NCBI GenBank assembly: GCA_017649925.1
Contig: JAGCFX010000062.1
Coordinates: 1-45,759 of the forward strand
Reading direction: 5' to 3'
Source: Paludibacteraceae bacterium
GTDB taxonomy: Bacteria; Bacteroidota; Bacteroidia; Bacteroidales; Paludibacteraceae
DNA length: 45,759 nt
The stretch's first letter is position 1. Each line of letters opens with the position of its first letter. This document shows positions 8,413 through 29,028 of this stretch, one piece after another. Made by a program: the position numbers and the translations under genes. Below the pieces are notes generated by a model that saw only the letters and a program-made list of their open reading frames with translations, was not told the origin of the DNA and ran no database searches.

Positions 8413-9756
8413 ATGAAACTATGCTTAAAGAATGCTGCAAGCTTTGTTGATGCGGCAGCACTAAAGAAACTGAAGTCGCAGACGGAAGCCGCCAACCTGC
8501 TGTTGGAAAACGGCAAAGGTGCGGGAAATGATTACATCGGTTGGGTACATCTACCTTCTTCTATCACGCCGGCTTTTCTGGACGAAGTACAAGCTTCGGC
8601 AGATGAATTGCGCCGTCGTTGCGAAGTGGTTATCGTTGCCGGAATCGGCGGTTCATACCTCGGTGCACGTGCTGTAAACGAAGCACTCGCCTCGGCTTTT
8701 GACGCTTTCGTGGCCAAGGACCGTAAGAATCCATATGTGGTGTATGCCGGCAATAACATCGGCGAAGACTATCTGGCAGAACTGATGGAGTTCTTGGCTG
8801 ACAAACAGTTCGGTATCATCAACATCTCCAAATCCGGCACAACAACTGAGACAGCCCTTGCTTTCCGTCTGCTCAAGACCATGCTTGAGAAAAAGGTGGG
8901 CAAAGAGGAAGCACGTCATCGTATCGTAGCAGTTACTGACCGTGCGAAAGGCGCGTTGCGCAGCCTCTCTACCAAAGAAGGATACAAGACTTTCGTCATC
9001 CCTGATAATGTAGGTGGTCGTTTCTCTGTCCTCACGCCGGTAGGACTGCTGCCGATAGCTGTAGCAGGCGGTAACATCCACGAATTGGTGCGCGGAGCAC
9101 AAGAGATGGAGAAAGCAACGGATGTAAGCGTTCAGTATGCCGAGAACCCTGCATGCCAATATGCCGCTATCCGTAATGCACTTTATCAGAGCGGAAAGAA
9201 AATAGAGATACTCGTGAACTTCAATCCTAAGTTACACTATTTTAGCGAGTGGTGGAAACAACTGTACGGCGAGAGCGAAGGAAAAGACCATAAGGCTATC
9301 TTCCCTGCTTCCGTCGATTTCACAACCGACCTGCACTCTATGGGCCAATGGATTCAGGACGGCGAGCGCACAATCTTTGAGACCGTTATATCAATTGAGA
9401 AAGCCAACAAACACGTACTCGTGCCGCTGGACGAAGAGAACCTCGACGGACTTAATTTCCTTGCCGGCAAACGCGTGGATGAAGTCAATAAGATGGCAGA
9501 ACTCGGAACGCGCCTCGCTCATATAGATGGCGGAGTGCCGAACATCCTCATCGAGTTCGAGAAGATTGACGAGTTTAATATTGGTCAGTTCATCTATTTC
9601 TTCGAGCGTGGTTGCGGTATCTCGGGCTATGTACTGGACGTCAATCCGTTCAACCAACCTGGTGTGGAGGCTTACAAGAAAAACATGTTCGCCCTACTCG
9701 ACAAACCTGGTTATGAAGCAGAATCAAAAGCAATCAAGGAACGCTTGTCTAAATAA
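8413..9756 (+). CDS. pgi: Glucose-6-phosphate isomerase
   Basis: Interconverts glucose 6-phosphate and fructose 6-phosphate in glycolysis and gluconeogenesis. From ATG 8413 the protein has 447 residues, close to the short bacterial PGI class. The ATG at 8377 would add 12 residues that lie in a hairpin and resemble no PGI N terminus, so 8413 is preferred. Signatures are [27 protein letters not shown] (sugar-phosphate binding SIS motif), [14 protein letters not shown] (PGI signature 1) and a C-terminal [14 protein letters not shown] block with the active-site lysine. Co-directional with gpsA upstream, and 16 nt from the AraC-type gene downstream, suggesting shared transcription. Confidence 0.95.
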
Positions 9757-14000: not shown

Positions 14001-17000
14001 ATTGTACGTACCAAAACATATCATTACGGAGCTACACAAAGCAAACTTGTGCTCACTCCTGAGTTTGAGACCTATAACTTTAGTCCGTTGGCAAATGCAA
14101 GCAAGCAGTTGAATTTCACTCTTGCCAAAGTATCTTCCCGCCAATTGCTTGATGTGGATGGTAATGTGATGGGCGAAGAGATATTGGCAACAGAAGATGT
14201 TACTTCTTCTCTTGCATTAGGTCCCGGGTATTGTAGTTTCCAAAGCGGAGGCGCTTATTTCAATGTAATCAACGAGCAAACGGTAGGTCAACACGTCACA
14301 CTTGTTACCAAAGCAGACAATAACGATGCGGGAGACAATAAAGATACCCTCATTATTTCTCTATCGGTAACAATCGGCGGAGTGGCTTATCCAGTAACAG
14401 CGCGCGTTCCACTGTTGCAACCATCATTAGAAAACAACGAAGTAGTATGGTCGGTGGTTCATGACGATCAGCGTTATTTCATAATGGCCGGTTCCGGAGG
14501 ATTGATTTTCCGTCAATATACGCTTAAGAACAATATCCTCTACAAACAGGGAACAACCAATGTCCATTTGCGTAAGGGTTCTGCCGATGCAGCAAACAGC
14601 GATACGCGTTATATCACTCCATGGAAGTATAATTATGTAAATCAAGCAGCAAAGCAACTGACTTTAGAGACAGAGTACGGAATTGGCAAAAAATTTGTTA
14701 TAGACGGAGAAACTCCCACTATATCAGACGCAAGTCCTTCCACTTTGACCTATGAATATGTCAGTGTCAATGTCAATGACAATGCGAATTTCGAGGAACT
14801 GGTACGTATCAAATACGGCGCAGATAAATGGCTGAAGTTCACAGTGACGGGCAGCACACCATCGTTGTCGTTGACTGAAAATGCGGCGGAAGCTTCTGTC
14901 TTCTCGTGGAGTTATCTGCTGCAAGAATACAATTTGCTCAATAGCGGCAATTATCCCGATAAAACCGAAGCGGAGTTTGGCTACAACAGTACAAGCGGAG
15001 TGTCTATTTCCACCCGCTACAAGGCGTACAAAGAGTTCTCGATGTTGTTGGATAACACGCTAACCTATTGCGGCCGCGAAGATGAAACCAATATTGCCAA
15101 CCTTATTTCTGCGGGCAAAGAGTGGCTGACTTCTTATTCTATCGTTCGTAAAGACGACAGCCGTTTCCCTGCAAATGCCAGCGGTTTGAATATATCCACG
15201 AATAGTGGTAATTTGCAGACAACGGTTACTCCTTCGGGTGATAGCCCAACCGAGATTCGTTATCCGGCAGGAACCGGTCCGTATGTGAATATTGTGGATA
15301 CACTTGATGTGACGTTATCGCTTCAAAGCGGTGCTCCTGCTTATCGTTTCAAAGACAAATGGAGCAGCTATACTTCCGTGGATGACGCACATCTGAAAAT
15401 ACCGCTTATCCGTAAGACTTACCACTCAGCGCCATTCGATTCGTTGGTCTGCATAGTGGAGAATGATGAATATAGTCATAACTTCCCGTCCACAATCGTA
15501 TTGGATGTTAACGATACTCATACCTTCACGTTGCGAACAGAGCACCACGAAGGAACCCATGTGCTTGACGTGAATAACAATTCCGTATCCTCAACAAGTG
15601 ATATTCATGATCATACGGACGCAATGCATTTGGATAATCCCGCGTTGGCAGAAATCCGTCTGATTGATGAATACGGAAATACGCCATCATGGTGCCACAT
15701 CAGCGGAAAGACCGCCAACACCATAACCGTGCAATGTACAGCGAACGGAATACGTGCACCTCGTGTGGCATATTTGTATTTGGCCTATACGATGCAACTC
15801 AAAGGAGAATGGCGATATATCAATTTCCGCCTTTCCGTGACGCAGTCCAGTCTTTTCCAATACGCGAATAACCAGACGCTTATCCATAGCAAAGGAGCGT
15901 CCGGAGATTCGTTAGTAAACGGTATGCAGCAAGTGCATACGAATACGCGGATACTTTACTATTATCCGAACCAGCGCGTAGAGTTGCCGCTCCGCGAACG
16001 TGGATTCTATGGTTGGTGGCGTTGGTTCCGTGAAGGGCCGGGCGAGATAGGCGATACGGATATACCTAACGAATCATGGGTTACTCCTCCAACCAATGTG
16101 GGAGCATTTAACTTCCCTTATCGTATTATTGGTGACTCGGTATGGATTGACGAGAACGACCATTCGCAAGGTAAGAAACTGGTAACAATGGGTCGATATA
16201 CAGTATTCCATAATTATACTTATCCGAATAAGTCGAAATATAGCAGAAATGATCCTCCGGCCAAGGCTCCTTTGGTAACACCTCCAGCCGGCAAGGCCGT
16301 TGTTACTTATGCGGTGGACATCAGTAACTACTATGACAATTTGCCGTTGTCAATGACTAATGTTAACCAGATAGATACGGCAAAATTGGATACGATGACC
16401 AATATCATAGAACCGACGTTGTCGCTTCGCGAGATATTTGAGTTGCACCCTTGGACCGAAATGGCAGAAAGGATGGAGAATTACAAGTCTCCGAACGGCG
16501 CAACTTATCCGTTGGCGGACGAGAAATACATGGAGGATCATGTAGTCATGGCTCCTACGGGTAATCTTTTGCTTCTCAGCACGGAGCAACGCTATAACTA
16601 TGCCAATATCCGAAAAGGTAATCACTCTGAGTCGCTTATGGGCTACTATATGCGTGATGATAACTGGGAAACCGGAGGTTGGGATGATGCCCGTAAGGAT
16701 ACAATGATCTGGTGCGCAGGCTGGGATGCCGATTGCTCATGGTACACTTATAACCCCAAGACGGGTGTTTATGCGTCCTGTTCACACCCTCTAACGGAAG
16801 GCGATGATTTCTTGAAAGTGCCGGCTAAGACATCAATTACAGCCGGTCAAGAAGCCGATACGGTATATTATTGTCTCCGCTCGCGCAGTAAAAAATCAAC
16901 ACATGCAGGAACTATAGGAGATCCTGATCCCGTAGAACCTGCTGATGGCGACTATTGGTTCAATATATGCCGATATATGGTAATTTACCATACTCCGGCC

Positions 17001-20000
17001 AAGTATGGTCCTCTTACAGAGAATGCGGAAAACAAGGCTATTATTACCAATGATGAGATAGAGCAAAATTATGAGGTGCTTGAGCGTTTGAACTTTGATT
17101 ATAACCGTCCGGGAAGCGATTATCAACTCTATCCGCACCCGCTACCTTGGGCGGATGCTTCCTATGGATATACATACCCGCTGTCGCCATCACTTCCATG
17201 TAACCGATTCCATAACGACTTTGCTCCCGATCTACCCAACATGGGCGAGTACGGACTTATCAATAAAATAGGTTACAGTAATTACTGGTATATGATGGAA
17301 CAGCACGGAGGTGCCGAGAACGGATATATGATTTACTGTGACGGAATGGCCTCTGCCGGTCAGGTAGCAGCACTCTCTCTGGAATCCAGATTGTGTGAAG
17401 GACAGAAGATGTACTTCTCCGGCTATGTGGGCAACCCGGCTACCCAAGTGAATAAATCATGTCCGAATTTCCTTTTCAGTGTGCAAGGTTCCTTGGATGG
17501 CGTAGTTTGGGAGGATATTACTTCCTATATGACCGGAGATATCCAGCCATCTAACAAATGGTATCAGATATTCTTCCCTATAGACCAACAGAAAACCTAT
17601 TATCATTTCCGTGTGCGTGTATACAATATGGCGTCCAGCAATGATGGTAATGACTTTATTATTGACGACATGTGTGTCTTTGCCACCAAGCCTCCTTTGA
17701 TTGCTTACCAAGCGAATACCACGTGTAAAAATGAGGCGGAGAATGACTCTTTGACGCACGTTGTGCTTCGTGTGGACTATCAAGGATTCAATGATGAAAG
17801 TTACAATGGAGGAAATGTAGTTTATACGGTCGAGAAAGTGACCAAGGGTGGCGAGACCAGTTTTATGAATCTGGTTGATGGTTATTATGACGAACATACA
17901 GCTCCCGCTATACCTCCTGCTACAATGGATACGGTATATGGCGTAGTTCCAATGCCTGCCCGCACCTACGAACCAACGGATCAAGATTCTGTATTCAATA
18001 ACTTGGGAGATCTTATTCTGAAGTTTGAACAGACCTTGGCGGCTAAGGAGGCTGGAGGCAGCGGAGAAGTATTCCGCCAGGGATATATCTATGAGAACTT
18101 GGATGGTGTTCTTCGTCCGGTAATGTATATTATTCACTCGGCGAAGATGGCATCTGACGATACGTATTATGTCCGCATGGCCGGTTCCTTGAAAGATCTG
18201 TTAGGCAGTATTTGCGCTATGACGAGCCAACTGAGGGTTAGAAATAGAATGATTCTGGAATTGAATGGTGAGGAACAAGCAGAAAAAGAAGTGGCCGGTA
18301 TGTGTGCAAATACAACATATGATGTCAGTCTGCGTGTCAAAGGTTCGCTTCTTTTGGATAACTCCGCACCTATTGATCTCAACGGTTCGTGCGTAAATGA
18401 CTGGTTGCTCTATGGAGATACTGCTGCGGCAACCAGTGTCACACGTTACGGTTATTCGTATAGCGATATAGTCAAGGTGGTTAAGGATATTCTGCGCTGC
18501 GAACCGGATTATGGAACCAATGCAAATCAGTTTGCTCGTAATTTGGCGGCAGTGAGTAGAAATGAGATGGAGCGTATGATGAACAGTCAAAACGTGGACC
18601 TTGAAACATCCGATCACCCGTATGATGTACTTTCTCATTTGGTAACCAACGGTTTCCTTACCTTGTATCGCTCTAAGTTGACAGTAACAACCAGTTCGGG
18701 CGATTCCATCCAATATGTTATTTTCCCGATAATAGGTACAGGTTCTGATGCGATGCTTAACATGGATGTAGAGGTTTGTCCGACACCTGTCTTTATCAAA
18801 CTCAAGCCGACAGAGGGAGGTGATGTACCGATGACAATAGGAGGTTTTGTCCGTGAGGAGACAGAGGCTGCTCAACCGGCTGTAGTACTTGCGGATGTCA
18901 CCACGGCAACTTCGGAGATTGTTATTCCTATTGACTCAATCATGCATAATGTAGCATTGGATACGATTATCTTCCTTTCGACCAATGATCCGGAATTCCT
19001 GGAGGGCGTTCATATATTGCGCTTGCAGCCGGATAGAGTATATGATATCAGTTCCGGTAGCGACAACTCCGGTTATTACAAGAATGGAGATGATCTCATC
19101 TTAACTCCGTCTTCCTCCAATAACTACCAGATGCGTCCGGGCTATAGTTATACTTTTGGTCTCCGGATGATGACTCGTACTGGTTCATCGACATTACCCG
19201 AAAGTGATTGCCAGGTTGGAACGATTCCTTTCGTTGTTTCTGTTGTACCGGACAATGTGCGTTGGGACCCGAAGAACGATGAGAATAATCAATGGAATAA
19301 TCCGGAGAACTGGATTGGGATAGACGAACAGAACCAACCTCTTCATCAAGATGCGCATTTTGTGCCGTTATCCACAACCAACGTCATTATACCGACGTTG
19401 GCAGATGGTTTGCCTTATCCGGAACTGCCGAATCCTGAAAGTATTAGTTCCAAAGACTCGGTAAAGCAAACGGGCTTCCAGTACAACACGTGCGAAGCTA
19501 TTCGCTTCATGCCGGGATCTGCTATGGGACAACAACAACGATTGGCATACACTAGTGCCATCGTGGATATGAGCATGCCGCAGAATAAGTGGGCACTGCG
19601 CTCTGCTCCGGTAACGGGTATGTTAAGTGGAGATATCTTCATGTCCGAGGCAGACCTTAGAGGGTACACTTCGCCTTGGGAAGTGGGTTCTTTCGATATC
19701 AACGGTCGTAATTACCAAACAGGCAACGCCTCATTCTGGCTCTCTTTGTACAGTCGCGAGACCATACATAAGGGTAATAATGATAACGTAGAGGACTCAA
19801 CCCGCACTGCTGATGCCGAGTGGTCCAAAGTAACGAATGTGATGCGATACTCGCTACCGCCTGCACAAGGTTGGGCAGTATATTCACGTACTGCTTCCGG
19901 CAATGACGCTGCATTCCGACTGCCGAAGAACGATGATATATATTATTATTACAATGAGAGTGGCGATAAGATTTTTGAACTCTACGAACAAAATCTGCAA

Positions 20001-21029
20001 GCTCTTCGTAGCACAAATGCAGGTGGTGCAGACAAGGTAGGAAAGTTAGCATTCCATCCGGGCGCTGCTGCAACTTGCAAGGAATATACGCTTACCAACG
20101 AAGCGGCATCCACATCTTTCGTCTTTGGTAATCCGACCATGGGTTACATAGACATTTGGGGCTTCATCGCGGATAATAGTGGTTTGGCAGAAGAGATTAG
20201 CTATATTAACTCCAGCGGCATTTACACTACTGTAACGAAATCGACAGCAGAAGCTACCACTAATAATCTCAGCAACCAAAGCCGTTATCTACCGCCTATG
20301 CACGCGATGGTTGTCACTACGTCATCCGGCACAGAGCTTACTGTGACGCTCAATACAAACCGTATCGTAACCAAAGTGAGCCAAGTGGTTCGTCCTGTTT
20401 CTCCGGCTCCGCGTCGCGTCGGCCCTTCAGGACTAAATAAAGGTATTATGACTATTACTGCAATCAATCCAGTATCGTCTCGATGCACCTCACGTTTGTT
20501 GCTTGGTCAAGGTTATCATTCCGATGTGTTAAAGGGTGAAGATGCTATGTTAACAACCCTCAATATTGATCATTATACAAACACCTCTACTCCTGCAACA
20601 CCGTTTAATATCTATGCCTCTGAGAAGGGATATGGCTTGAGTATAGACTTGCGCGACGAGGTAGTTAATGTTCCAATATCTTTCTATATGAGCAATTTGC
20701 CTTTCGGACCGGTAACGCAACTCTGGTTCACAGGGGTCAATAATATTGATGGCGAATTGGTATTATATGATGCCCTTACGGATAGTGAACGTCCGATTGT
20801 TGATGGTGTTTGTCTGGAGATAGAGACACCTGAGAGTAGTCACCAAGTGCGGTATTATATCCGTCGTCTCGGCTTCATACCGGGCGATTCAACGAATCCG
20901 ATAGCCACCGATATTACCATCCTTGAGCAAGAAGATAATGCATTGGCTGTTAAGATAATCAAAGACGGTAATGTGCTTATTCTGCGTAACGGAGAAGTAT
21001 ATACCGTATTAGGGCAGAAGATACGGTAA
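11070..21029 (+). CDS. Giant (3319 aa) secreted multidomain protein with short C-terminal sorting-like tag
   Basis: A signal peptide (hydrophobic AWLLSLVLFVSAQIFA, cleavage likely after residue 32) starts a 3319-residue extracellular or surface protein of unrecognised function. Near 569-610 is a Listeria-Bacteroides type repeat (FTEWNTQADGNGTSY ending in LYAIATY). Two diverged copies of one module begin near 930 and 1403 (YIDIVDTL and YVNIVDTL, each followed by a KTYH motif). Residues about 2069-2210 look like a jelly-roll, ending IIDDMCVFATKPP. A WNNPENW segment near 2742 starts a C-terminal block common in large Bacteroidales surface proteins. The last 25 residues (GNVLILRNGEVYTVLGQKIR end) match the tail of the protease at 34640. 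No catalytic motif was seen. It is followed 10 nt later by a small membrane-anchored protein gene. Confidence 0.8.
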   Translation: MRMNKVCFNKEQFCVRAWLLSLVLFVSAQIFAGDGWTPSDCGLVVDLQPGDQILLSVMVDDDNNPSTPAKEYFVCDYPGYTGGYFNYSAANRLRLIPQSPSATEPSEVSVWTIDTALTRIKSGLDYALGGISYTMWSSRDWTLTTSNNQPYYFIGALSNNTAANNGWLCDVIFSTPTENSLQTPDPNNTLGRAASAGGKFNGRTGTGFLGMTYREVFMFDNTRWSEDPIAYVNSAVVTFNTSNGNKTWNGKTIAKGEAFYAYRESKHNATTRTLFRLYILNRPMQSCPDSYFFGYNEQDYKKYRTGPRPVSNTNPTQLYFEDSTDYRKTYTMDRLECMERVSDTKYYQCWMNVPESDSTYYYVGYGNEFRTSGLGSGGARSQFAKIETLPVQHLGLPAPRGAYGRMIVDTTSSADNLHVEFAPGGYFLRTNTGRNIRMRPNADGTIWTCEEMWHITDAYAALTIKATMFTGTEFSDDDEGADIPGWSQMVVGTSVPLASGGGYVTGGMNGWARIHINNTDPNGHMEFVLAEGTKWIHYDNNGCVGEQIPDQHPESGQTSVTVREPRLVGGFEFTEWNTQADGNGTSYHPGDVINNLPDGETTLYAIATYTGTYHVVLSFVKEDGKRYFLTHPGTAAPRFSRARHIDEWTDAYQGMANAENIDNHYINTFKLLKGPLCAEGEYVLDPRREMRYGSKDSLLFYENFAPAEEEYIGLYYSDPNTVIANTSWAGLFTSSSGWPNYSVADVQNTKLRSTHYLHTVADVLTRDERENSAVSYVKYNTSADQFDGEALEANATTFQISRVRVADEHYVVLPDTTIAWTDEITFGLHQGEQMEQQVWSKLIGKQLMALMKLGNDTVYFHPNRDKILTTANEFRLSADYRLVETFTYIRDSRATTLDASDETKMTETGNDFSRMVTTGMNSPMDVQYMGSYIDIVDTLRISLRTLGPVKIKEYYGRWRTGAPGVHVNADGSRYRDIIVRTKTYHYGATQSKLVLTPEFETYNFSPLANASKQLNFTLAKVSSRQLLDVDGNVMGEEILATEDVTSSLALGPGYCSFQSGGAYFNVINEQTVGQHVTLVTKADNNDAGDNKDTLIISLSVTIGGVAYPVTARVPLLQPSLENNEVVWSVVHDDQRYFIMAGSGGLIFRQYTLKNNILYKQGTTNVHLRKGSADAANSDTRYITPWKYNYVNQAAKQLTLETEYGIGKKFVIDGETPTISDASPSTLTYEYVSVNVNDNANFEELVRIKYGADKWLKFTVTGSTPSLSLTENAAEASVFSWSYLLQEYNLLNSGNYPDKTEAEFGYNSTSGVSISTRYKAYKEFSMLLDNTLTYCGREDETNIANLISAGKEWLTSYSIVRKDDSRFPANASGLNISTNSGNLQTTVTPSGDSPTEIRYPAGTGPYVNIVDTLDVTLSLQSGAPAYRFKDKWSSYTSVDDAHLKIPLIRKTYHSAPFDSLVCIVENDEYSHNFPSTIVLDVNDTHTFTLRTEHHEGTHVLDVNNNSVSSTSDIHDHTDAMHLDNPALAEIRLIDEYGNTPSWCHISGKTANTITVQCTANGIRAPRVAYLYLAYTMQLKGEWRYINFRLSVTQSSLFQYANNQTLIHSKGASGDSLVNGMQQVHTNTRILYYYPNQRVELPLRERGFYGWWRWFREGPGEIGDTDIPNESWVTPPTNVGAFNFPYRIIGDSVWIDENDHSQGKKLVTMGRYTVFHNYTYPNKSKYSRNDPPAKAPLVTPPAGKAVVTYAVDISNYYDNLPLSMTNVNQIDTAKLDTMTNIIEPTLSLREIFELHPWTEMAERMENYKSPNGATYPLADEKYMEDHVVMAPTGNLLLLSTEQRYNYANIRKGNHSESLMGYYMRDDNWETGGWDDARKDTMIWCAGWDADCSWYTYNPKTGVYASCSHPLTEGDDFLKVPAKTSITAGQEADTVYYCLRSRSKKSTHAGTIGDPDPVEPADGDYWFNICRYMVIYHTPAKYGPLTENAENKAIITNDEIEQNYEVLERLNFDYNRPGSDYQLYPHPLPWADASYGYTYPLSPSLPCNRFHNDFAPDLPNMGEYGLINKIGYSNYWYMMEQHGGAENGYMIYCDGMASAGQVAALSLESRLCEGQKMYFSGYVGNPATQVNKSCPNFLFSVQGSLDGVVWEDITSYMTGDIQPSNKWYQIFFPIDQQKTYYHFRVRVYNMASSNDGNDFIIDDMCVFATKPPLIAYQANTTCKNEAENDSLTHVVLRVDYQGFNDESYNGGNVVYTVEKVTKGGETSFMNLVDGYYDEHTAPAIPPATMDTVYGVVPMPARTYEPTDQDSVFNNLGDLILKFEQTLAAKEAGGSGEVFRQGYIYENLDGVLRPVMYIIHSAKMASDDTYYVRMAGSLKDLLGSICAMTSQLRVRNRMILELNGEEQAEKEVAGMCANTTYDVSLRVKGSLLLDNSAPIDLNGSCVNDWLLYGDTAAATSVTRYGYSYSDIVKVVKDILRCEPDYGTNANQFARNLAAVSRNEMERMMNSQNVDLETSDHPYDVLSHLVTNGFLTLYRSKLTVTTSSGDSIQYVIFPIIGTGSDAMLNMDVEVCPTPVFIKLKPTEGGDVPMTIGGFVREETEAAQPAVVLADVTTATSEIVIPIDSIMHNVALDTIIFLSTNDPEFLEGVHILRLQPDRVYDISSGSDNSGYYKNGDDLILTPSSSNNYQMRPGYSYTFGLRMMTRTGSSTLPESDCQVGTIPFVVSVVPDNVRWDPKNDENNQWNNPENWIGIDEQNQPLHQDAHFVPLSTTNVIIPTLADGLPYPELPNPESISSKDSVKQTGFQYNTCEAIRFMPGSAMGQQQRLAYTSAIVDMSMPQNKWALRSAPVTGMLSGDIFMSEADLRGYTSPWEVGSFDINGRNYQTGNASFWLSLYSRETIHKGNNDNVEDSTRTADAEWSKVTNVMRYSLPPAQGWAVYSRTASGNDAAFRLPKNDDIYYYYNESGDKIFELYEQNLQALRSTNAGGADKVGKLAFHPGAAATCKEYTLTNEAASTSFVFGNPTMGYIDIWGFIADNSGLAEEISYINSSGIYTTVTKSTAEATTNNLSNQSRYLPPMHAMVVTTSSGTELTVTLNTNRIVTKVSQVVRPVSPAPRRVGPSGLNKGIMTITAINPVSSRCTSRLLLGQGYHSDVLKGEDAMLTTLNIDHYTNTSTPATPFNIYASEKGYGLSIDLRDEVVNVPISFYMSNLPFGPVTQLWFTGVNNIDGELVLYDALTDSERPIVDGVCLEIETPESSHQVRYYIRRLGFIPGDSTNPIATDITILEQEDNALAVKIIKDGNVLILRNGEVYTVLGQKIR

Positions 21030-21561: not shown

Positions 21562-22776
21562 CTATAATGCGGATTTTTGAATTTGCACACCGACAAGGCG
21601 ATCGTAACGTGCGCCGAAAGGACGCCAATAAACATAAACGGCGTATTCATTTTCGGCTTGCCAATAACTACCATCTACTCGCTGGGTGGTAGTTTTGTAT
21701 TGTGTACCTTTGCCTGAAAACCAATACTGATAGTCATACCCACCCTGCTTCACCAGCGCCGTGAGCCAATAGACTTTCGCATCCGGGTCGTACTGCATCC
21801 TATTTCGCAGGGTCTGTCCATTACTAAAGATGTCTCCGCCGACGTATATACTGCCGTCCAGCCAAGGCTTATCTACCGGCAACGTCCAATGCACCCAGAC
21901 ATATTCTGCCTCCGTGTCGCTATCCTGCGTGCGCTCGGCATTAACCACAAAGCGACCGTCGGAGTCATACTGGTGGATATACTGCCCGCGCGTCAGTTCG
22001 TCCGCAAAAAGGATTGCATGATAATCGCCCATCTCATAAACCATGCGATCAATACCTGTGCCTGCATAGAAACAGGAAAAAGCATCAAAATGATGGTACT
22101 CGTTACCGCCCTCAAAGATCAGGGCTTTGTTATTCATATAGCGCAGCCGGTTAGGCTCAACAAAGGTAGGTTGCGTGAGCGTGACAGCATTATCCAAGCG
22201 GTTATTCTGCGTCACCACTACCCTCACCTCTTTCGGGTCGCGGATATCCAACGCGGTGGTGTTGACATCGACATCTACCTGCTGAAAACGGCCGCTGAGT
22301 TCAATATCCGTGTTCGCGCGCACTCGTGTCTCTATCTTCACAAGCGGCTCTACAACACAAAAATCCACCTCCGCCACTTTGTTATCAGGATTACCGTCTT
22401 CGTAGATGAAAAGTCGATACTGCCCGCTTTTGGTCAGTTGCATGTCTTCGTTGGGGAACTCGAGCCAATAATGTGTATATTCACGACTGGTATTGAGCGA
22501 ATGCTCAAAGTTCGTAATATCCCGCGTGGTAAAGCCTTGCAGATACTCGCCGCTGAGCAAGTCACTGTTCAGCATCTGAACGCTATAGGTATAGAAATGC
22601 ACATCATGGCTCATCTCGTCAAAACTGATGTGCAGAGGTTTATCCTCGCCGAGCAACAAGACGTCCCGTTCCACGCGCAATGTGCGCACGTGCTCATTAA
22701 AAACACGCGTGTGTGTCTGCGCAAAAAGAGCCGTACAAACACACCAAAGTACTATGAGAGTACCTATTCGCTTCAT
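21562..22776 (-). CDS. Type IX secretion system Plug protein (DUF5103 family)
   Basis: 404 residues with a signal peptide (IGTLIVLWCVCTALFA, cleavage likely after residue 19). The start THTRVFNEHVRTLRV and the later YGxGDYHAI-like and WLTALVKQGGYDYQYWF segments fit the DUF5103 family. In Flavobacterium a member of this family occupies the periplasmic side of the SprA translocon as the Plug, so the expected place is the periplasmic face of the outer membrane (established for the family). The ATG at 22776 follows a promoter at 22785-22816. Its presence implies that the organism has a T9SS, although no other T9SS structural gene lies in this window. Confidence 0.8.
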   Translation of the reverse strand: MKRIGTLIVLWCVCTALFAQTHTRVFNEHVRTLRVERDVLLLGEDKPLHISFDEMSHDVHFYTYSVQMLNSDLLSGEYLQGFTTRDITNFEHSLNTSREYTHYWLEFPNEDMQLTKSGQYRLFIYEDGNPDNKVAEVDFCVVEPLVKIETRVRANTDIELSGRFQQVDVDVNTTALDIRDPKEVRVVVTQNNRLDNAVTLTQPTFVEPNRLRYMNNKALIFEGGNEYHHFDAFSCFYAGTGIDRMVYEMGDYHAILFADELTRGQYIHQYDSDGRFVVNAERTQDSDTEAEYVWVHWTLPVDKPWLDGSIYVGGDIFSNGQTLRNRMQYDPDAKVYWLTALVKQGGYDYQYWFSGKGTQYKTTTQRVDGSYWQAENEYAVYVYWRPFGARYDRLVGVQIQKSAL

Positions 22777-22942: not shown

Positions 22943-23084
<142 letters not shown>

Positions 23085-23097
23085 TTCTTATCTCTCT

Positions 23098-23195
23098 TCG
23101 TTCGAACGATTATTGTGACAAAGTCACAATTTTCGAGTCCGGGAGAATTGCGAAGCAATAATCGTGCCCCTCCAGGGGCTAAGACGTGGCTCAAA
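23098..23195. repeat. Nested inverted repeats with split direct copy of the tRNA 3' end
   Basis: This stretch holds the palindrome TCGTTCGAACGA (23098-23109). ACGATTATTG (23106-23115) is inverted as CAATAATCGT (23156-23165), enclosing the hairpins ATTGTGAC-AAA-GTCACAAT (23112-23130) and ATTGC-GAA-GCAAT (23147-23159). The hairpin GCCCCT-CC-AGGGGC is at 23166-23179. TTCGAGTCCGGGA (T arm) recurs near 23132-23144 and GTGGCTCAA recurs at 23187-23195, in the same orientation as in the tRNA gene. No protein frame here is convincing. Confidence 0.75.
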
Positions 23196-23206
23196 TGATA
23201 GAAAGA

Positions 23207-24010
23207 TTATTCTAAAAAACGTTTGCGCAGAAGTTGAATGTCGTCAGGCGCAAGGAATAGCTGTTCTTGGAGGTAATTCATCATTCCTCCGAACTCACGG
23301 TCGATGAGATCCAGCGTGCGAATAAAATTGGGAGTCGAAACGCCCATAAAAGCCAGGATAACTTCTTTCTCGGGTTCTCCGCCACCTCGGGCATCTATTT
23401 CGGCATTCAGTTTAGCCACCAGCTCACGGTAAGCCGTATTGGACAAATCAAAATCAGCGATAATGGCTTCTCTCTCCACGCCCAGCGCAAAGAGCAGGTA
23501 AGCCGCCCCCCAGCCCGTTCGGTCTTTTCCCTGGAAACAATGCCAGAGAATACCACCGTCTTCAGGTGCCTCAACGATCAAGCGCAGAAACGCTGCATAT
23601 TGAAGTTGCGAGTACTCGCTGCGGATGAGCGACGGGTACATATTCGCCGCCATCTTCTGCACCTCGGGATAGAAAGAATAATTGACGATGTGTTTCTCAA
23701 GGTCCAGAAATGCCTCTTGCGGAATAGGCTGTTCGGTCAAGCGCTCAGCACTAAGGTCAATAGTCGGCAGCAAATGATGCTCCGCTCCTTCAACCGGTTG
23801 GTCCGGCAACGCTTCTGCCTCTCCCAACGACCGGAAATCAAAGATTTTCGCGAGGTTATATTCGGTATGCAAGCGTTTGAGATCTGCCGGCGAGGCATCA
23901 CAAAGATGGGCAGTACGCAGCAAGCGATGCGCACGAACTTTCTTTCCTCCCGCCCCCACCATTCCGCCCAAATCGCGTGCGTTAACTATGTTGTCGAAAA
24001 GAACTTCCAT
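23207..24010 (-). CDS. Tyrosine-protein phosphatase (Y_phosphatase3-type)
   Basis: 267 residues, cytoplasmic, no signal peptide. The N-terminal NARDLGGM motif, FDFRS (Asp58) and the P-loop WHCFQGKDRTG (Cys158, Arg164) identify a protein tyrosine/dual-specificity phosphatase of the IphP/Y_phosphatase3 type, which can act on phosphotyrosine or phosphoinositides. The catalytic residues are intact. It is the last gene of the six-gene signalling operon. Its ATG overlaps the stop of the HD-domain gene by one base (TAATG). Its substrate is unknown; the kinase two genes upstream is an obvious but untested counterpart. Confidence 0.88.
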   Translation of the reverse strand: MEVLFDNIVNARDLGGMVGAGGKKVRAHRLLRTAHLCDASPADLKRLHTEYNLAKIFDFRSLGEAEALPDQPVEGAEHHLLPTIDLSAERLTEQPIPQEAFLDLEKHIVNYSFYPEVQKMAANMYPSLIRSEYSQLQYAAFLRLIVEAPEDGGILWHCFQGKDRTGWGAAYLLFALGVEREAIIADFDLSNTAYRELVAKLNAEIDARGGGEPEKEVILAFMGVSTPNFIRTLDLIDREFGGMMNYLQEQLFLAPDDIQLLRKRFLE

Positions 24011-24585
24011 TATTTGAATACCTCATCAATAAGCCGGACAAACTCCTGATAAGCAAAGGTATCCTTGAGTTCGCTGAGCGATGCCGCCAAGCCGCGATAA
24101 TGCCATTCGTGGGCGGCTTTATCGGAGCAGTGGAAGATTTTCCACAATTCGTCACCTTGCTGCTGATAGTCACGCCAGATAGCCCGCATGTTGCTCAGTT
24201 TATCGCCCATCGCTACTATTTTCGCGTCATGCGAAGCAGCAGCGAGACGATCAATAGCCGCCTGTTTGCGCTCGTGCCAACTGTCTTCCTCCGAGACGCC
24301 TTCCGTAAACCGGTCGCTCTCCGCAAACACGAGATTGGCAATGCGGTCGCCGAATTCTGCCCGCAGTTGTTCAACGGTCACATCGGTATCCTCGATGGTA
24401 TCATGCAGCGCCGCGGCCGCCAGCAGTTCCTGGTCCGGTGTGATGGTAGCTACTATCTCCACCGCCTCCATCGGATGAACAATATACGGAAAACCTTTGC
24501 CACGCCGCTCGGTGTTATGATGCGCTTGCACGGCAAACACTATTGCGCGGTCCAGCAGATCGGTGTCGAGGTATTTGTTTGCCAT
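24010..24585 (-). CDS. HD-domain phosphohydrolase, MESH1/SpoT-hydrolase-like
   Basis: 191 residues. The HD-domain ligands are visible in the arrangement of RelA/SpoT hydrolases: YIVHP (His37), ALHDTIEDT (His61-Asp62 with Glu65-Asp66) and GDKLSNMRA (Asp128). There is no synthetase, TGS or ACT domain, so it resembles a stand-alone small alarmone hydrolase, expected to remove the 3' pyrophosphate of (p)ppGpp. The ESDRFTEGVSEEDSWHERK segment places it in an HD subfamily whose substrate I cannot settle; other nucleotides are possible. It starts 4 nt after the kinase gene and overlaps the phosphatase gene, in the same transcript as an alarmone synthetase. Confidence 0.8.
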   Translation of the reverse strand: MANKYLDTDLLDRAIVFAVQAHHNTERRGKGFPYIVHPMEAVEIVATITPDQELLAAAALHDTIEDTDVTVEQLRAEFGDRIANLVFAESDRFTEGVSEEDSWHERKQAAIDRLAAASHDAKIVAMGDKLSNMRAIWRDYQQQGDELWKIFHCSDKAAHEWHYRGLAASLSELKDTFAYQEFVRLIDEVFK

Positions 24586-24589
24586 GCTT

Positions 24590-25465
24590 TTAGTCCTTCA
24601 ATATATTCTCTTTCAATACCGCACGGAACTCCGGCATTGGACGATGCGTACAACTCTCAACGAGCAGAGTCTTTAATCCTGCATAAACACGCACGGTCTT
24701 CTCTATTTCTGCCAGATCTGCTTGCGGTCCACAGCCCTCTATCGGGCAATTCGGCGAATGGAAATACTCATCGGCAAACGCATCCCAGAAGCGTGCAGCT
24801 GTGGCGTTGGACATGTGATACTGCTCCAATGTCCATGATTCATCATTGAGTTTGCAGCACAGATAAACCATGCCTATGTCGAACATCGGATAGCCGTAAC
24901 AGAAATCGCCGAGGTCAATAAAATACGCCGTACGTTTGCCGTCTTTTTCCACAAAAATACCGTTACTGAACTGCAGGTCACCATGGATAGCGGTGTCTGT
25001 CTCGGGCGCTGCAGCAATGAAGGCACGGAGTTTGGCTTTCTCATCGTCTGTAAAGAAGGGATTTTCTTTCAGCCAGTTGTACTGACGGTCCTTGACGTTC
25101 TCAAACTTGGTGGTATCCACATGTATATTGTGCAACTTCAGACAGAGTTGTGCGAACTCACGGGCATATTCCTCGGTGTGCTCGGGATCGTCGCCACAAG
25201 CACGAGAATAGGATTTCTTGCCTTCAATACGGCGGAAACGAATGCCTAAGCGCTCTCCGTCCGTTACCAAGTCTCCGGGCTCGGGACTAGGGATGCCGAG
25301 GTCATAAACTTTCTTTGCCATCTCCAATTCCGTACGTGCGGACTCGAAATTGCGCAAGTACAGCTTCATCATGATCGACGGGTCGGTCTTATGGTTATAA
25401 CTGGCGCCGTTGGCTCCTTCGCCCGTGCGCACGTAATCGTTTAAATTTATTTTTATAGGTTCCAT
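24590..25465 (-). CDS. APH/choline-kinase-like phosphotransferase (TIGR02172-like)
   Basis: From ATG 25465 the protein has 291 residues. An in-frame ATG at 25507 would place the start in a hairpin, whereas 25465 has AGAAAGGAA just upstream, so 25465 is chosen. The fold is that of aminoglycoside/choline kinases: Lys34 in IMMKLYL, the catalytic loop AIHGDLQFSN (161-168) and the metal-binding YFIDLGDF (Asp184). It resembles the TIGR02172 family of putative kinases; the substrate is not known. It lies between the alarmone synthetase and hydrolase genes. A drug-resistance role is not suggested by context. Confidence 0.78.
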   Translation of the reverse strand: MEPIKINLNDYVRTGEGANGASYNHKTDPSIMMKLYLRNFESARTELEMAKKVYDLGIPSPEPGDLVTDGERLGIRFRRIEGKKSYSRACGDDPEHTEEYAREFAQLCLKLHNIHVDTTKFENVKDRQYNWLKENPFFTDDEKAKLRAFIAAAPETDTAIHGDLQFSNGIFVEKDGKRTAYFIDLGDFCYGYPMFDIGMVYLCCKLNDESWTLEQYHMSNATAARFWDAFADEYFHSPNCPIEGCGPQADLAEIEKTVRVYAGLKTLLVESCTHRPMPEFRAVLKENILKD

Positions 25466-25483
25466 AATTATTTCCTTTCTAGG

Positions 25484-25522
25484 CGGAGGCCGCTCTTCCC
25501 GTCTCATCGGGAAGACGCTCCG
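25484..25522 (-). promoter_or_regulatory. Intra-operon hairpin between synthetase and kinase genes
   Basis: CTTCCCG (25495-25501) pairs with CGGGAAG (25508-25514) around a 6-nt loop, and CGGAG (25484-25488) pairs with CTCCG (25518-25522), giving a long stem with small internal loops. There is no T tract in the direction of transcription. It is the only sizeable gap in the operon and could partially terminate, stabilise or process the mRNA. Confidence 0.6.
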
Positions 25523-25534
25523 GGTTCCATATGA

Positions 25535-26590
25535 TTATTTCTTTTTTTGCATAAACGGTAAATTAGATGCCTGCTCAAAGGTCAGTTGTGCGAGTGCGGC
25601 GTTCTGACTGCTCTCGCCGTTGACGACGTTGAAGAAGCGCTCGAGTCCCATCGTTCCACCGCCGATATCGAGGATACAAACGATACAGATATTCTGTATT
25701 CCGACAGACGAAGAAATGATGTCAAGGTCGGTGGTACCCAACTGGTGTCTTGCCAGCCGATAAGCATCGTCTTCGTATTTGACGATCAGTCTCTTCACAT
25801 CGCCTAAGGTGTTGCACTGCAGCGCTTTAAGCACGCGCAAATAACGGATAAGCGGCACATCCTGGATCTCCGCCTGGTTGATGGCAGCGATGCGTTTGTT
25901 GAGCGCATCGAACGGCCGGGCCTGCAGGAACGAACGGAAAGTATCGCCGTCCAGCAGCACATCGTCCAACTTGCCGTTCTGCACCAATTGTTGCACACGG
26001 CGACGGTAGTCGTTGATCTCCGTACGGATGCGGCTGAACTCATCGTCTGCCAACTCGAGCATTCCCGCCAGACGATTCATCTGGCGCAAGTACTCACGCG
26101 GGATCTCGACGCCGGTCTTATAGCCGTTGTCATGGTTAATTGCCGCCCACGCATGTTGCAACGTGGTGCGTAACTGCAGTTCAAAGCGGAAGTTGTACCC
26201 CGGCAGACGGCAGATATAATGCAGCGAGTTATAGCCGAAACTATCCAACTGATGCAATCTGCGCTTATCTACGGAGTTCTCCCAGTCGACATCGAACAGT
26301 TTCTCTGCGATGGCTGCAATACGGTCCACATCGTCGGTGTAGAACGTGATAACACGCGCGCCGAGGACATCCGTTATGTCCTCCAGAGTGGCGTATTTCT
26401 GTCCCTTGAGTGCCAGTTTGCCGGCAAGACTGTCTTCAGTCTTCACGCGCGCCTCGATAGCGGTAACGATAAGGCCGTTACGCGCCAAGGCGGAAGTGAG
26501 TTTGCTCACCACCTCCTCTTTCATGCGCTCAAAGACCGGAAGGTTTTCCCGGTACTCCTCTAAAATGAGTTCGCTGTGCAAATCCATCAT
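25535..26590 (-). CDS. RelA/SpoT-type nucleotidyltransferase (small alarmone synthetase-like)
   Basis: 351 residues. The (p)ppGpp synthetase fold is clear: EARVKTEDSLAGKL (Arg48, Lys50), DITDVLGARVITF (Asp74), SFGYNSLHYI (G loop, Tyr120/His124) and FELQLRTTLQHAWAAINHD (Glu137, Arg141). These carry the residues that bind ATP and GDP/GTP and position the metal. There is no HD hydrolase domain before it and no TGS/ACT region after it. About 190 further residues follow, with a sequence (IGIQNICIV-like, GGGTMGLERFF) I cannot assign. It overlaps the STAS gene by one base (TAATG). It is predicted to make an alarmone, or pyrophosphorylate another acceptor, under control of the upstream partner-switch genes. 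Confidence 0.85.
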   Translation of the reverse strand: MMDLHSELILEEYRENLPVFERMKEEVVSKLTSALARNGLIVTAIEARVKTEDSLAGKLALKGQKYATLEDITDVLGARVITFYTDDVDRIAAIAEKLFDVDWENSVDKRRLHQLDSFGYNSLHYICRLPGYNFRFELQLRTTLQHAWAAINHDNGYKTGVEIPREYLRQMNRLAGMLELADDEFSRIRTEINDYRRRVQQLVQNGKLDDVLLDGDTFRSFLQARPFDALNKRIAAINQAEIQDVPLIRYLRVLKALQCNTLGDVKRLIVKYEDDAYRLARHQLGTTDLDIISSSVGIQNICIVCILDIGGGTMGLERFFNVVNGESSQNAALAQLTFEQASNLPFMQKKK

Positions 26591-26892
26591 TACTCGATCT
26601 CAAACAGACTGATAAAGCCGGTCATTACAAACACCTGACGAATGTCGGCATTGATAGAACGAACCAGCACTTTCGAGCCGTGAGTAGCGGCATCTTTGCG
26701 GATAGAGAGGAAGATGCGCAGACCCGAAGAAGAAATGTACTCCAATTTGCTGCAGTCAAGGATGATCTCCTTGTTCTCCGCCTCCATAAGTGGCTTAACG
26801 GCCTCGGCTGTAGGGATAGCCGCTGCGGTGTCCAGACGTCCTTCAAAGAACGCGATCAGTTGTTTGCCGTTTTCTTGAATGGTTGTTGTCAT
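26590..26892 (-). CDS. STAS-domain protein, anti-sigma factor antagonist (RsbV/SpoIIAA-like)
   Basis: 100 residues, a single STAS domain. LEYISSSGLRIFLSIRK carries the expected phosphorylatable serine (Ser55 by alignment with SpoIIAA). In partner switching, an HATPase kinase phosphorylates this serine and a SpoIIE-type phosphatase removes the phosphate; the unphosphorylated form binds a partner. Its start overlaps the stop of the phosphatase/HATPase gene by 4 nt (ATGA), and its stop overlaps the synthetase start. Bacteroidota lack a sigma-B system of the Bacillus kind, so the final target is open. Confidence 0.9.
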   Translation of the reverse strand: MTTTIQENGKQLIAFFEGRLDTAAAIPTAEAVKPLMEAENKEIILDCSKLEYISSSGLRIFLSIRKDAATHGSKVLVRSINADIRQVFVMTGFISLFEIE

Positions 26893-28976
26893 AATTTTTT
26901 AACGAGCATTAGTATGTTTTTATCATCTTTTCTTTCGTAATGAATATCGTCCATCAGTTGCTTCACGAGATGGATACCGAGCCCTCCGATGGCGCGTTCC
27001 TCGGCCGAGAGGGTGATGTCCACTTCCGGTGTAGCGGTCGGGTCAAACGGGATACCGCTGTCGGAAATGGTGAACACCATTCGTTCGCCGTCTTTTGTCA
27101 GGCAACGCATGTATTCCACGAACACTTTACCGTCTTTTCTGCCCGGATAAGCGTAGAGCATAACGTTGCTCACAGCCTCTTCCAGCGCAAGGTTAATAGG
27201 CATGTTCAGTTCGTCAGGAATGCCCAGTCCGTCAAGCCACTCTGCCAACGTCGGTATCTGTTGAATGTCGTTGCGCATTACGATGGCGGGTATCTGATAA
27301 CGGATGGCAAGCATCGTCAGGTCGTCGCTCTGCTGCGCACCGTTGACGAACTCTGCCACGCTGTTTTGCATCGCATCAATCATGTCGCGCGGCGGCATGC
27401 CGTTCGTACGTTTGAGCGCCTCAAGCATGCGTTCTTCGCCATATAACTCATGTTTCTTGTTCTCCGCCTCGGTCAGACCGTCTGTGTAGAGGAAGAGCGT
27501 GTCGCCGTGATTGAGACGCGTGGTCTGCGATTGGAAGACAAAGCCCGGCTCAATACCCAGCGGCAGGTTCGGCAGCACATCAACCATCCTCCGGTCGCCG
27601 TTAGCCGTCACCACGGGCGCGTTATGCCCTGCGTTGCAGTATTCCAGTGTTCCGCTCTTCAGGTCAAGCACGCCGAGGAAAAGCGTCACGAACATGAACT
27701 GCTCGTTCTGGTCTGCCAAGGCTGTATTCATGTGCCCCATTATCTCCGCTGCCCGCTCCTCATGTGCCGTAACACTACGGAACAGCGAACGCGTCGTAGC
27801 CATCAGCAACGAGGCAGGCACACCCTTACCGCTCACGTCACCCACGCAGAAGAACAACTTCTCGTGACGTATGTAGAAATCGTACAAGTCGCCACCGATC
27901 TCTTTCGCGGGATCGACAATGCCGTAGATATTCAAATCCAAGCGGTCAAGGAACGGCGGGAACACTTTCGGCAACATTGCGCGTTGTATCGTCTGCGCGA
28001 TCTCCAACTCACCGCGCATGCGCTCCTGATGGGTGTTGAGCGTGATGATTTTCTGAATATCCCGCGCTGAGTGGAAGAGAATGAAAATCAGCAGTCCCAG
28101 ACCTACCAGCATCAACAACGAAACGATGGCACCGGTCTTGCGTAGGTCAGCAAACAGCACATCCTCAGGAATGATGATCGATAGTTTCCAACCCGTCGCA
28201 TCAACCACCTCGTCATATTTTAGATATTTGCGATTGGATTTGGTGTCCGGTCGCGCAACGATGTCCAGCCCCGTGCATGACTGTATCGAATAATAGCTGT
28301 CTTCATAAACCTGCAGGTGTTCCGACACTTTGTTTAAGCGCTCGAGCGACAAGTCCACCAGCGCCACTGCCACCACATTATGCGCGCGGTCCTTGACGGG
28401 ATAAGAAACACTCACCACCATCTTCTTTGCACCCGCGTCGTCATAATAAGGCTCAGACCACCAAGTGCTGTCAATGGATAAGCCGTTCTCATACCACTCC
28501 ATCGATAAATAGTCATGCTCCTCGCCGCCTATCTGCCGCGTGGTCACACGTTCCTTGATAGTCGGATCGCGACGCCCGGGACGGATCTCACGACTGCTGC
28601 AAGGCTCAAACCAATGGCCCTCTTCCGGATAATAGTCGGGAATAAAAGAAATACTTGCGCTTTCCACGTCCTCCAGCGTCTTCAGCAAGATGCGCGTACA
28701 AGTGTACATAGCTCGCGGTTGTTCAAGATTTCGCGCCGCCATCGAAGACAACATCTTCACTGCAGCCTCCATCTCCGTCGTCAGCACATTGACCTCCAAC
28801 TCCGCAGCGCGCAACTCCGTCCGAGCACGTTGCTCAGCCTCGGCTTTGATGGCCGCACGGCTGTAGAAATACTGAACGGCAGCCGTCGTTTCAATGATGA
28901 TAGCCGCCAACAGTAAGACGCCGAAATCCGACCGGAATCGTAGCGTTCTGCCCCGTTTCTTTTTGTTACGTTTCAT
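26889..28976 (-). CDS. Membrane sensor with SpoIIE/PP2C phosphatase and C-terminal HATPase (RsbU-RsbW fusion)
   Basis: From ATG 28976, 695 residues. A first membrane helix (about 18-40, LLLAAIIIETTAAVQYFY) leads to a periplasmic sensor of about 240 residues, dCache-like (inference), and a second helix (about 281-303). The PP2C/SpoIIE domain (about 320-545) begins ERMRGELEIAQTIQRAMLP and contains GGDLYDFY and VSGKGVPASLLMA with metal-binding Asp residues. The C terminus (about 566-695) is an RsbW-like HATPase with LALEEAVSNVMLYAYPG (N box) and SDSGIPFDP (G1). Phosphatase and kinase of one partner switch are thus fused. Longer starts (29027, 28988) fall in or at the promoter. First gene of the six-gene operon. 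Confidence 0.88.
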   Translation of the reverse strand: MKRNKKKRGRTLRFRSDFGVLLLAAIIIETTAAVQYFYSRAAIKAEAEQRARTELRAAELEVNVLTTEMEAAVKMLSSMAARNLEQPRAMYTCTRILLKTLEDVESASISFIPDYYPEEGHWFEPCSSREIRPGRRDPTIKERVTTRQIGGEEHDYLSMEWYENGLSIDSTWWSEPYYDDAGAKKMVVSVSYPVKDRAHNVVAVALVDLSLERLNKVSEHLQVYEDSYYSIQSCTGLDIVARPDTKSNRKYLKYDEVVDATGWKLSIIIPEDVLFADLRKTGAIVSLLMLVGLGLLIFILFHSARDIQKIITLNTHQERMRGELEIAQTIQRAMLPKVFPPFLDRLDLNIYGIVDPAKEIGGDLYDFYIRHEKLFFCVGDVSGKGVPASLLMATTRSLFRSVTAHEERAAEIMGHMNTALADQNEQFMFVTLFLGVLDLKSGTLEYCNAGHNAPVVTANGDRRMVDVLPNLPLGIEPGFVFQSQTTRLNHGDTLFLYTDGLTEAENKKHELYGEERMLEALKRTNGMPPRDMIDAMQNSVAEFVNGAQQSDDLTMLAIRYQIPAIVMRNDIQQIPTLAEWLDGLGIPDELNMPINLALEEAVSNVMLYAYPGRKDGKVFVEYMRCLTKDGERMVFTISDSGIPFDPTATPEVDITLSAEERAIGGLGIHLVKQLMDDIHYERKDDKNILMLVKKL

Positions 28977-28995: not shown

Positions 28996-29028
28996 GCAAA
29001 GATAGTAAAAAATTTTGACATACGCAAA
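28996..29028 (-). promoter_or_regulatory. Promoter of the signalling operon
   Basis: On the minus strand TATCTTTGC (plus 28996-29004), a 20-nt spacer and TTTG (plus CAAA 29025-29028). The -33 side reads TTTGCGTATGTCAAAA, the extended pattern seen at other promoters here. It fixes the start of the first gene at or below 28988, most likely 28976. Confidence 0.8.

Follow-up and report, generated by a model that had tools for sequence, protein, structure and literature searches.

The window analyzed here, a stretch of 45,759 nucleotides (nt) comprising positions 1 to 45,759 of contig JAGCFX010000062.1 in the Paludibacteraceae bacterium assembly GCA_017649925.1, encodes on its minus strand (28976 to 23207) an operon of six genes, all in the same direction and here called G1 to G6, in which the proteins of a partner switch stand next to enzymes of alarmone metabolism. 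A functional link between this switch and the alarmone cassette is well supported by the comparison of related genomes, and we consider it on balance probable that the membrane-anchored switch controls this accessory alarmone cassette. The model draws on the nature of the parts, their intact active-site residues, their clustering and co-inheritance, natural gene fusions, and the precedent of diguanylate cyclases under the control of STAS proteins.

Composition of the operon

G1 (26889..28976, on the minus strand like all other features of the operon; 695 amino acids [aa]) joins three parts in one chain according to Pfam: an MCP-like_PDC_1 sensor domain (residues 120 to 215, 28332..28619; 5.6e-14), a SpoIIE-type phosphatase domain of the PPM kind (residues 372 to 560, 27297..27863; 1.4e-55), and an RsbW-like GHKL kinase domain, HATPase_c_2 (residues 577 to 693, 26898..27248; 1.3e-22). 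RsbW models match the kinase part at scores below their cut-offs, and the best PDB match of G1 (3ke6; 3.1e-18, over residues 358 to 611) is Rv1364c of Mycobacterium tuberculosis, which likewise places a PPM phosphatase before a GHKL kinase in one chain but has a fused STAS domain and a sensor that differs from that of G1. When the active sites of the switch were compared across 22 modules (that of the window included, L032 excluded), the six tested, metal-binding aspartates of the phosphatase and the tested N-box and G-box residues of the kinase proved invariant in all 22 proteins.

The second gene, G2 (26590..26892, 100 aa), encodes a STAS switch protein (Pfam 4.4e-15; also matched by TIGR00377). 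Its Ser55 (codon 26728..26730), located two residues before a conserved glycine, is the phosphorylation site predicted from alignment and is a serine in 14/14 aligned STAS proteins as well as in 22/22 of the larger comparison. We infer its phosphorylation from SpoIIAA and RsbV, which are phosphorylated STAS proteins, and from published work on HsbA and SypA (see below). To judge from their sequences, G1 and G2 together have the phosphatase, the kinase, and the STAS serine of a partner-switching system of the RsbU/RsbW/RsbV type, in which G1 would phosphorylate the STAS protein.

G3 (25535..26590, 351 aa) is a small alarmone synthetase (SAS) with a RelA_SpoT domain (Pfam 3e-17), in which Pfam found no HD, TGS, or ACT domain. 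A PDB profile search, a structural model, and fold searches agree on the fold and the catalytic motifs of RelP/RelQ, and an alignment of 21 SAS sequences showed no variation at any of the tested RxK, D, GYxSxH, ExQxR, H, and K positions (the catalytic roles of positions in synthetase and hydrolase were assigned from alignments relative to PDB entries and from general knowledge). Being RelP/RelQ-like, G3 probably makes (p)ppGpp or pGpp. Unlike the single-domain RelP/RelQ enzymes of ca. 210 residues (209 to 255 aa for the chains in the PDB), it carries an additional, separately folding C-terminal domain of 148 residues (204 to 351; 25538..25981) and is linked to a partner switch. This candidate regulatory domain, delimited by alignment and model, is present in 21/21 aligned homologs and was modeled with a predicted local distance difference test score (pLDDT) of 93.5; one Foldseek search with one model gave no PDB match at E ≤ 0.001 (best E 2.0), which does not by itself make it a new fold.

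Two further Rel-type proteins are encoded in the same genome, a long Rel enzyme that unites hydrolase and synthetase domains (L002) and a shorter, Rel-like one (L001) whose translation, by our reading, shows just the end of a hydrolase domain, so that G3 is a third, accessory synthetase. Since a survey of RelA/SpoT homologs (RSH) gives Rel and RshB as the typical set of Bacteroidia (PMC3153485), the presence of an SAS is in itself unusual here.

G5 (24010..24585, 191 aa) is a stand-alone HD_4 protein (Pfam 2.9e-19) with an H...HD...ED...D motif, of which H37, H61, D62, E65, D66, and D128 are invariant in 10 hydrolases, and its best matches in the PDB belong to the small alarmone hydrolase type; the operon therefore carries a synthetase together with a hydrolase. 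Encoded just ahead of it is G4 (24590..25465, 291 aa), an APH-like kinase of the TIGR02172 family (NCBIfam; Pfam APH 2.5e-17) with intact HGD-x4-N and D-x-x-D motifs, for which an upstream ATG at 25507 is likewise open as an alternative start. The last gene, G6 (23207..24010, 267 aa), encodes a Y_phosphatase3 (Pfam) tyrosine-phosphatase-like protein that we regard as accessory; it is present at 66 of the 80 related loci described below and was not found in the clusters of families f2, f79, and f81.

Neighboring genes of the operon overlap by 4 nt (G1/G2) or 1 nt (G2/G3 and G5/G6) or are separated by 69 nt (G3/G4) and 4 nt (G4/G5). A pattern scan for Bacteroidota-type promoters (TTTG-N17..22-TAnnTTTG) returned nine matches in the window where 0.75 were expected, one of them 5' of G1 (TTTG-N20-TATCTTTG; 28997..29028, minus strand) and none inside the operon (23207 to 28976). 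The initial annotation had claimed six co-directional genes with these spacings and domains behind a single promoter, a first protein uniting sensor, SpoIIE phosphatase, and RsbW-like HATPase, a serine at position 55 of the STAS protein, and a RelA-type synthetase encoded next to it, all of which the coordinates, the Pfam matches, and the pattern scan bear out. It had also recognized the HD hydrolase, whose HD_4 domain we confirmed, and overlooked its kinship to alarmone hydrolases.

Conservation and co-inheritance of switch and enzymes

Gene content and gene order across genomes indicate that the link between the switch and the alarmone enzymes has been conserved across families of Bacteroidales, with changes in gene order and with both halves inherited together (in our labels, f2-type names stand for families, g40-type names for genera, G001-type names for genomes, and L001-type names for loci). 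Within the window's genus, 26 of 37 genomes have an ortholog of G3. Named genomes were scanned as well and yielded 247 relatives, of which we kept the best 80; these loci come from Bacteroidales, Paludibacteraceae, and Bacteroidaceae and in many cases from ruminants. Counting gene matches of at least 55 bits, 59 of these 80 loci show the full order G1-G2-G3-G4-G5-G6, and the others the orders 12345 (6), 123 (4), 3456 (2), 12356 (2), 23456 (2), and 23451 (2) or, more rarely, 1234 (1), 12346 (1), and 34512 (1), with some incomplete loci ending at contig ends. At 77 of the 80 loci no other gene separates STAS and SAS, and at 51 of these 77 the two genes overlap if each is given its longest frame.

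We compared eight genes around the operon to the 80 loci by BLASTP (E 1e-10, at least half of the query aligned), with more than 3 kb of sequence upstream of the cluster in 66 loci and more than 3 kb downstream in 61. Only the gene of a type IX secretion system (T9SS) plug-domain protein downstream of the operon recurs (7/80), and the upstream neighbor, an OmpA gene, is found at none of the loci (0/80); the cluster is thus kept while its surroundings change, and we reject chance neighborhood or background synteny.

At the level of the order, the SAS is encoded at E below 1e-140 by 9 of 393 genomes (the window's own included), with weaker matches in 17 more, and it is also present in three more genomes (61 searched) from the window's family. 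The gene orders found are SAS-HD-APH-[SpoIIE+HATPase]-STAS in f2 (L252), HATPase-SpoIIE-STAS-SAS-[HD+APH] in f81 (L253 to L255), SpoIIE-HATPase-STAS-SAS-[HD+APH] in f79 (L258), and HD-[SpoIIE+HATPase]-SAS-Cytidylate_kin2-STAS in f1/g40 (L195), where brackets enclose single proteins. L193, from a second genus of f1, is ordered as in the window, and L194 reads G1-STAS-SAS-APH until its contig stops. Within the set of 80, the order STAS-SAS-APH-HD-G1 is seen at L123 and L138, and at L131 the STAS gene lies downstream of a transporter-like gene. A single protein combines SpoIIE and HATPase in f2, f101, and the window's genus; f79 and f81 encode them as two proteins. In f101, SAS and HD genes adjoin an amino-acid-type ABC transporter (L256, L257), and G1 and STAS are encoded elsewhere, beside an NMT1-type protein (L290, L291). 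For the distant SAS homologs at L057, L058, L196, L198, L259 to L265, and L269, no match to STAS or SpoIIE models was found in the parts of the neighborhoods examined, and L259 has only a weak HD-type match (2.4e-4).

The hydrolase follows the synthetase closely: our model A4 matches below E 1e-90 in 9/9 genomes of the order with the SAS and in 0/384 without it, the next match being 3.6e-42 (G396) and most of the remainder being long Rel enzymes, next to some other small hydrolases. Because SAS genomes contributed to the building of A4, high scores are to be expected for them, and what informs is the lack of such matches in the other genomes, as judged from at most four scored candidates per genome. 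Among 22 genomes of the window's genus, all but one of the 11 that have the SAS give strong hydrolase matches (10/11), as opposed to 0/11 of the others; the SAS of the single exception, G012, sits on a 5-kb contig.

In a set of 19 genomes that we picked from the same families, 8 with and 11 without the SAS, a standalone STAS protein is encoded by 8/8 SAS genomes vs 0/11 SAS-less ones, and the same split is seen for SpoIIE matches better than 1e-43. Nine of these 11 SAS-less genomes have STAS domains only in frames of 550 to 590 aa, which we take to be typical of SulP transporters, and two are without any STAS. Close STAS orthologs within the window's genus were detected in 8/8 SAS genomes tested and in 0/11 without the SAS, and in genus g133 of f101, which contributed two SAS genomes and two SAS-less ones to the set of 19, switch and enzymes occur together in spite of being unlinked (2/2 with vs 0/2 without the SAS). 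STAS relatives at E ≤ 1e-15 (model A3) are present in 9/9 SAS genomes and in 87/384 without the SAS (naive p 2.3e-6), or 96 of the 393 genomes of the order overall. The naive p values for the hydrolase (1.8e-18) and for STAS in the 19 genomes (1.3e-5) are too small given the relatedness of the genomes.

Possible wiring of the switch

In the mechanism that we propose, an external ligand or stress would be sensed by the PDC domain of G1 outside the membrane and tilt the balance between its SpoIIE phosphatase and its RsbW-like kinase, and thereby determine how far STAS Ser55 is phosphorylated. In one of its forms, STAS would then dock on the cassette and set synthesis by G3 against removal of the alarmone by G5, with the APH-like kinase G4 as a further effector or as the link between STAS and hydrolase; we infer both the action of STAS on the cassette and its sign. 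A contact of STAS with the C-terminal domain of the synthetase is possible, though we would not bet on it. The initial annotation had proposed a model in which STAS phosphorylation gates alarmone synthesis and had suggested a search for conserved co-occurrence of the synthetase with STAS/SpoIIE genes, with a gene order confined to one genome speaking against the idea. The order recurs at most of the 80 loci, the same parts are clustered in other orders in further Bacteroidales families, and the co-occurrence holds in the chosen genomes, and this conserved linkage of switch and alarmone enzymes is the part of the proposal that stands; direct gating of the synthetase is only one of two live wirings.

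Several observations weigh against this model or its direct form, some of which are given with the second alternative below. STAS and SAS genes lie apart at L195, L252, and L131 and in f101; the operon of G029 is split over two contigs, with G1 and STAS apart from SAS, APH, HD, and tyrosine phosphatase; in G008, HD and tyrosine phosphatase are on another contig than the rest; and L071 has no hydrolase beside its SAS. We saw no fusion of STAS to SAS, and the sole fusion of STAS to a part of the module that we found is that to APH, in genomes that lack the SAS. A mirror-tree analysis, limited to those 57 of the 80 loci where every one of the six genes is full-length, related STAS to the SpoIIE part of G1 (partial r 0.63, p 0.002) and to its HATPase part (0.13, p 0.05). 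The value for the C-terminal domain of the SAS (0.15, p 0.03) is a weak signal in favor of a STAS contact there, being one of eight STAS comparisons made with no correction for multiple tests, and values were negative for the G1 sensor (−0.23), the catalytic domain of the SAS (−0.13), and APH (−0.12).

The alternative that survives best makes the APH-like kinase (TIGR02172) and not the synthetase the direct output of STAS, with APH working with or on the hydrolase and the alarmone being changed indirectly. It carries weight because APH appears to bridge switch and hydrolase through natural fusions. HD and APH form a single protein in four genomes of families f79 and f81 (G176, G279, G432, and G433), and STAS and APH form a single protein beside a SpoIIE+HATPase protein in three genomes without SAS, i.e., G408 (f30) as well as G323 and G463 (both f19, one genus); the intact motifs of the window's own APH fit this wiring, too. 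The STAS+APH frames (L393, L405, L406) are among the STAS matches in frames of ca. 320 to 420 aa, of which L404 and L407 to L410 gave no APH match beside the STAS domain and L411 ends at the contig end. Yet the fused APHs score 104 to 121 bits on TIGR02172 vs 218 to 232 for four APHs from modules and may represent another branch, the clusters at L195, L103, and L107 are without APH and retain STAS, SAS, and HD, the f101 loci show no APH beside SAS and HD, and the mirror-tree gave no positive STAS-APH signal. Altogether, we regard this wiring, and action of STAS through the APH/hydrolase unit, as somewhat unlikely.

Less probable still, though not negligible, is a shared regulon in which STAS hits a remote target (a transcription factor, an anti-sigma factor, or a transporter) and the alarmone genes are merely a co-expressed stress cassette. 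STAS relatives are indeed common without SAS (87/384 SAS-less genomes of the order), and 3 of 11 SAS-less genomes of the window's genus (G005, G025, G031) have a diverged STAS and kinase, two of them also a phosphatase; some of the 14 SAS-less STAS neighborhoods that we fetched contain transporter-type, NMT1-type, or AraC-type genes. In a tree of the STAS, SpoIIE, and HATPase regions of 23 modules, SAS-linked switches do not form one clade: those of f79/f81 group with SAS-less L206 and L201 to L205, SAS-less L199 lies among SAS-linked modules, and the unlinked f101 pair falls among linked ones (support 92 with L199 and 78 with L123/L131/L138). Because of these relatives and this tree, the switch seems to be a general device with several outputs, or one that has been exchanged, and the SAS-hydrolase cassette one of its outputs. 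Co-expression alone, however, would leave unexplained the co-inheritance of the unlinked halves in f101/g133, the repeated re-ordering with retention of the genes, and the fusions, all of which favor control of the cassette by the switch.

It is very improbable that G3 is a toxic SAS (toxSAS; a tRNA or adenosine pyrophosphokinase) neutralized by G5 and triggered by the switch, as in toxin-antitoxin or phage defense systems: a close hydrolase does accompany the synthetase in 9/9 genomes, and the PADLOC candidate PDC-S33 matches G3 (3.7e-13) as the sole PADLOC match among the six proteins, but in database searches by sequence and by fold G3 leans to RelP/RelQ over toxSAS.

Relation to known systems

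The closest functional parallels come from c-di-GMP (cyclic di-GMP) signaling. In the HsbR-HsbA-HsbD system of Pseudomonas aeruginosa, a PPM phosphatase and a kinase in one protein set the phosphorylation of an anti-anti-sigma (STAS) protein, and phosphorylated HsbA binds the second-messenger synthase HsbD, a diguanylate cyclase; the accessible parts of these papers mention no linked hydrolase or APH kinase (PMC5085249; PMC6482189). The input of this system is a receiver domain, unlike the membrane PDC sensor of G1, and its output is the cyclase. In SiaABCD, also of P. aeruginosa, the phosphorylation state of a switch protein decides whether it binds a second-messenger synthase and activates it, with unphosphorylated SiaC activating SiaD, and BgrV regulates the diguanylate cyclase BgrR (PMC8457831). 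SiaC is, however, a DUF1987 protein, the kinase SiaB is separate, and the output SiaD is again a diguanylate cyclase; a SiaA model matched only the phosphatase part of G1, with 49 bits vs a curated cut-off of 700. SypE-SypA of Vibrio fischeri resembles the module by a dual kinase/phosphatase that acts on a STAS-only protein, at Ser56, and differs from it by a biofilm output via an unknown target, with no RSH enzyme described in the text available to us (PMC8256260). The nucleotide synthase linked to our switch is a RelA_SpoT protein, and no GGDEF domain was found by Pfam in a search confined to the six genes; because the output enzyme differs, the module would, by analogy, share the logic of STAS-controlled diguanylate cyclase systems without being a member of the HsbRAD/SiaABCD class. 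FaRel and FaRel2 resemble the pair of G3 and G5 in that a small synthetase has a neighbor, which neutralizes the toxSAS and is a hydrolase in the case of FaRel. Their sequence and structure similarity to G3 is lower, and the abstract of PMC11782079 mentions no partner switch.

We tentatively propose, as a plausible reading that falls short of our expectation for the link itself, that this is the first partner switch with an output in alarmone metabolism: one STAS phosphostate would bind the C-terminal domain of the SAS or the APH/hydrolase unit, and an extracytoplasmic signal would set (p)ppGpp-type levels with no need for stalled ribosomes or the cell's long Rel enzymes. The usual controls of alarmone synthesis are ribosome or starvation sensing by long Rel enzymes and the transcriptional regulation of small synthetases. 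If the proposal is true, an extracytoplasmic sensor and a STAS switch joined to a synthetase-hydrolase pair would form a new input route to alarmones, the control of second-messenger enzymes by STAS proteins would extend beyond c-di-GMP, and at least one output would be assigned to a type of STAS switch that roughly one in four of the sampled Bacteroidales genomes encodes (96/393). Among titles and the beginnings of abstracts, with subscription papers and preprints outside the scope of the search, we found no paper that joins a STAS switch to an alarmone synthetase; papers that contain terms for both STAS or partner switching and ppGpp exist (e.g., PMC12440627, PMC3340395, and PMC11109978).

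Promoter sites, flanking genes, and other observations

The nine promoter-pattern sites of the window lie at 575, 591, 5752, 22786, 22832, 28997, 29350, 36165, and 37634, and six of them have TTTGC-N5-TCAAAA at the upstream box in common. A scan for sigma-70-type promoters gave 12 sites where 7.1 were expected and is uninformative here.

Downstream, the operon adjoins a tRNA-Thr (CGT) region (22943-23194) with partial 3' copies of the tRNA (13 nt at 23132 and 12 nt at 23183) and several inverted repeats. We considered a tRNA integration site as a general feature of the module and rejected it, as only 7 of 21 related loci scanned have any tRNA and only one has a tRNA-Thr (L069). The T9SS plug-domain protein (T9SS_plug_1st) mentioned above is encoded at 21562-22776 (minus strand). 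An open frame of 3319 aa (11070-21029, plus strand) has no Pfam match at E ≤ 0.001 and was not found in the 80 related loci.

A gene for a Cytidylate_kin2-like kinase lies in or beside the module at several loci, as identified by Pfam (L195:9484-10116, L207:8900-9574) or by resemblance of the first residues (L123:9004-9651, L137:13726-14391). STAS genes also stand beside CitMHS-type transporters, again according to Pfam (L123:14752-16548, L394:5509-7299) or to first-residue resemblance (L395:5827-7623, L396:7782-9578). The five mid-sized STAS frames without APH match (L404:3612-4781, L407:3828-5066, L408:3797-5038, L409:3603-4835, and L410:2639-3889) combine the STAS domain with a stretch of ca. 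300 aa that matched none of the models used, Pfam having been run for L404 and L407, and these loci have transporter-like neighbors. At L206, genes for STAS (4836-5132), SpoIIE (6110-7996), and HATPase (9136-9543) are interleaved with apparent ABC transporter genes that echo the ABC genes beside SAS and HD in f101 (L256).

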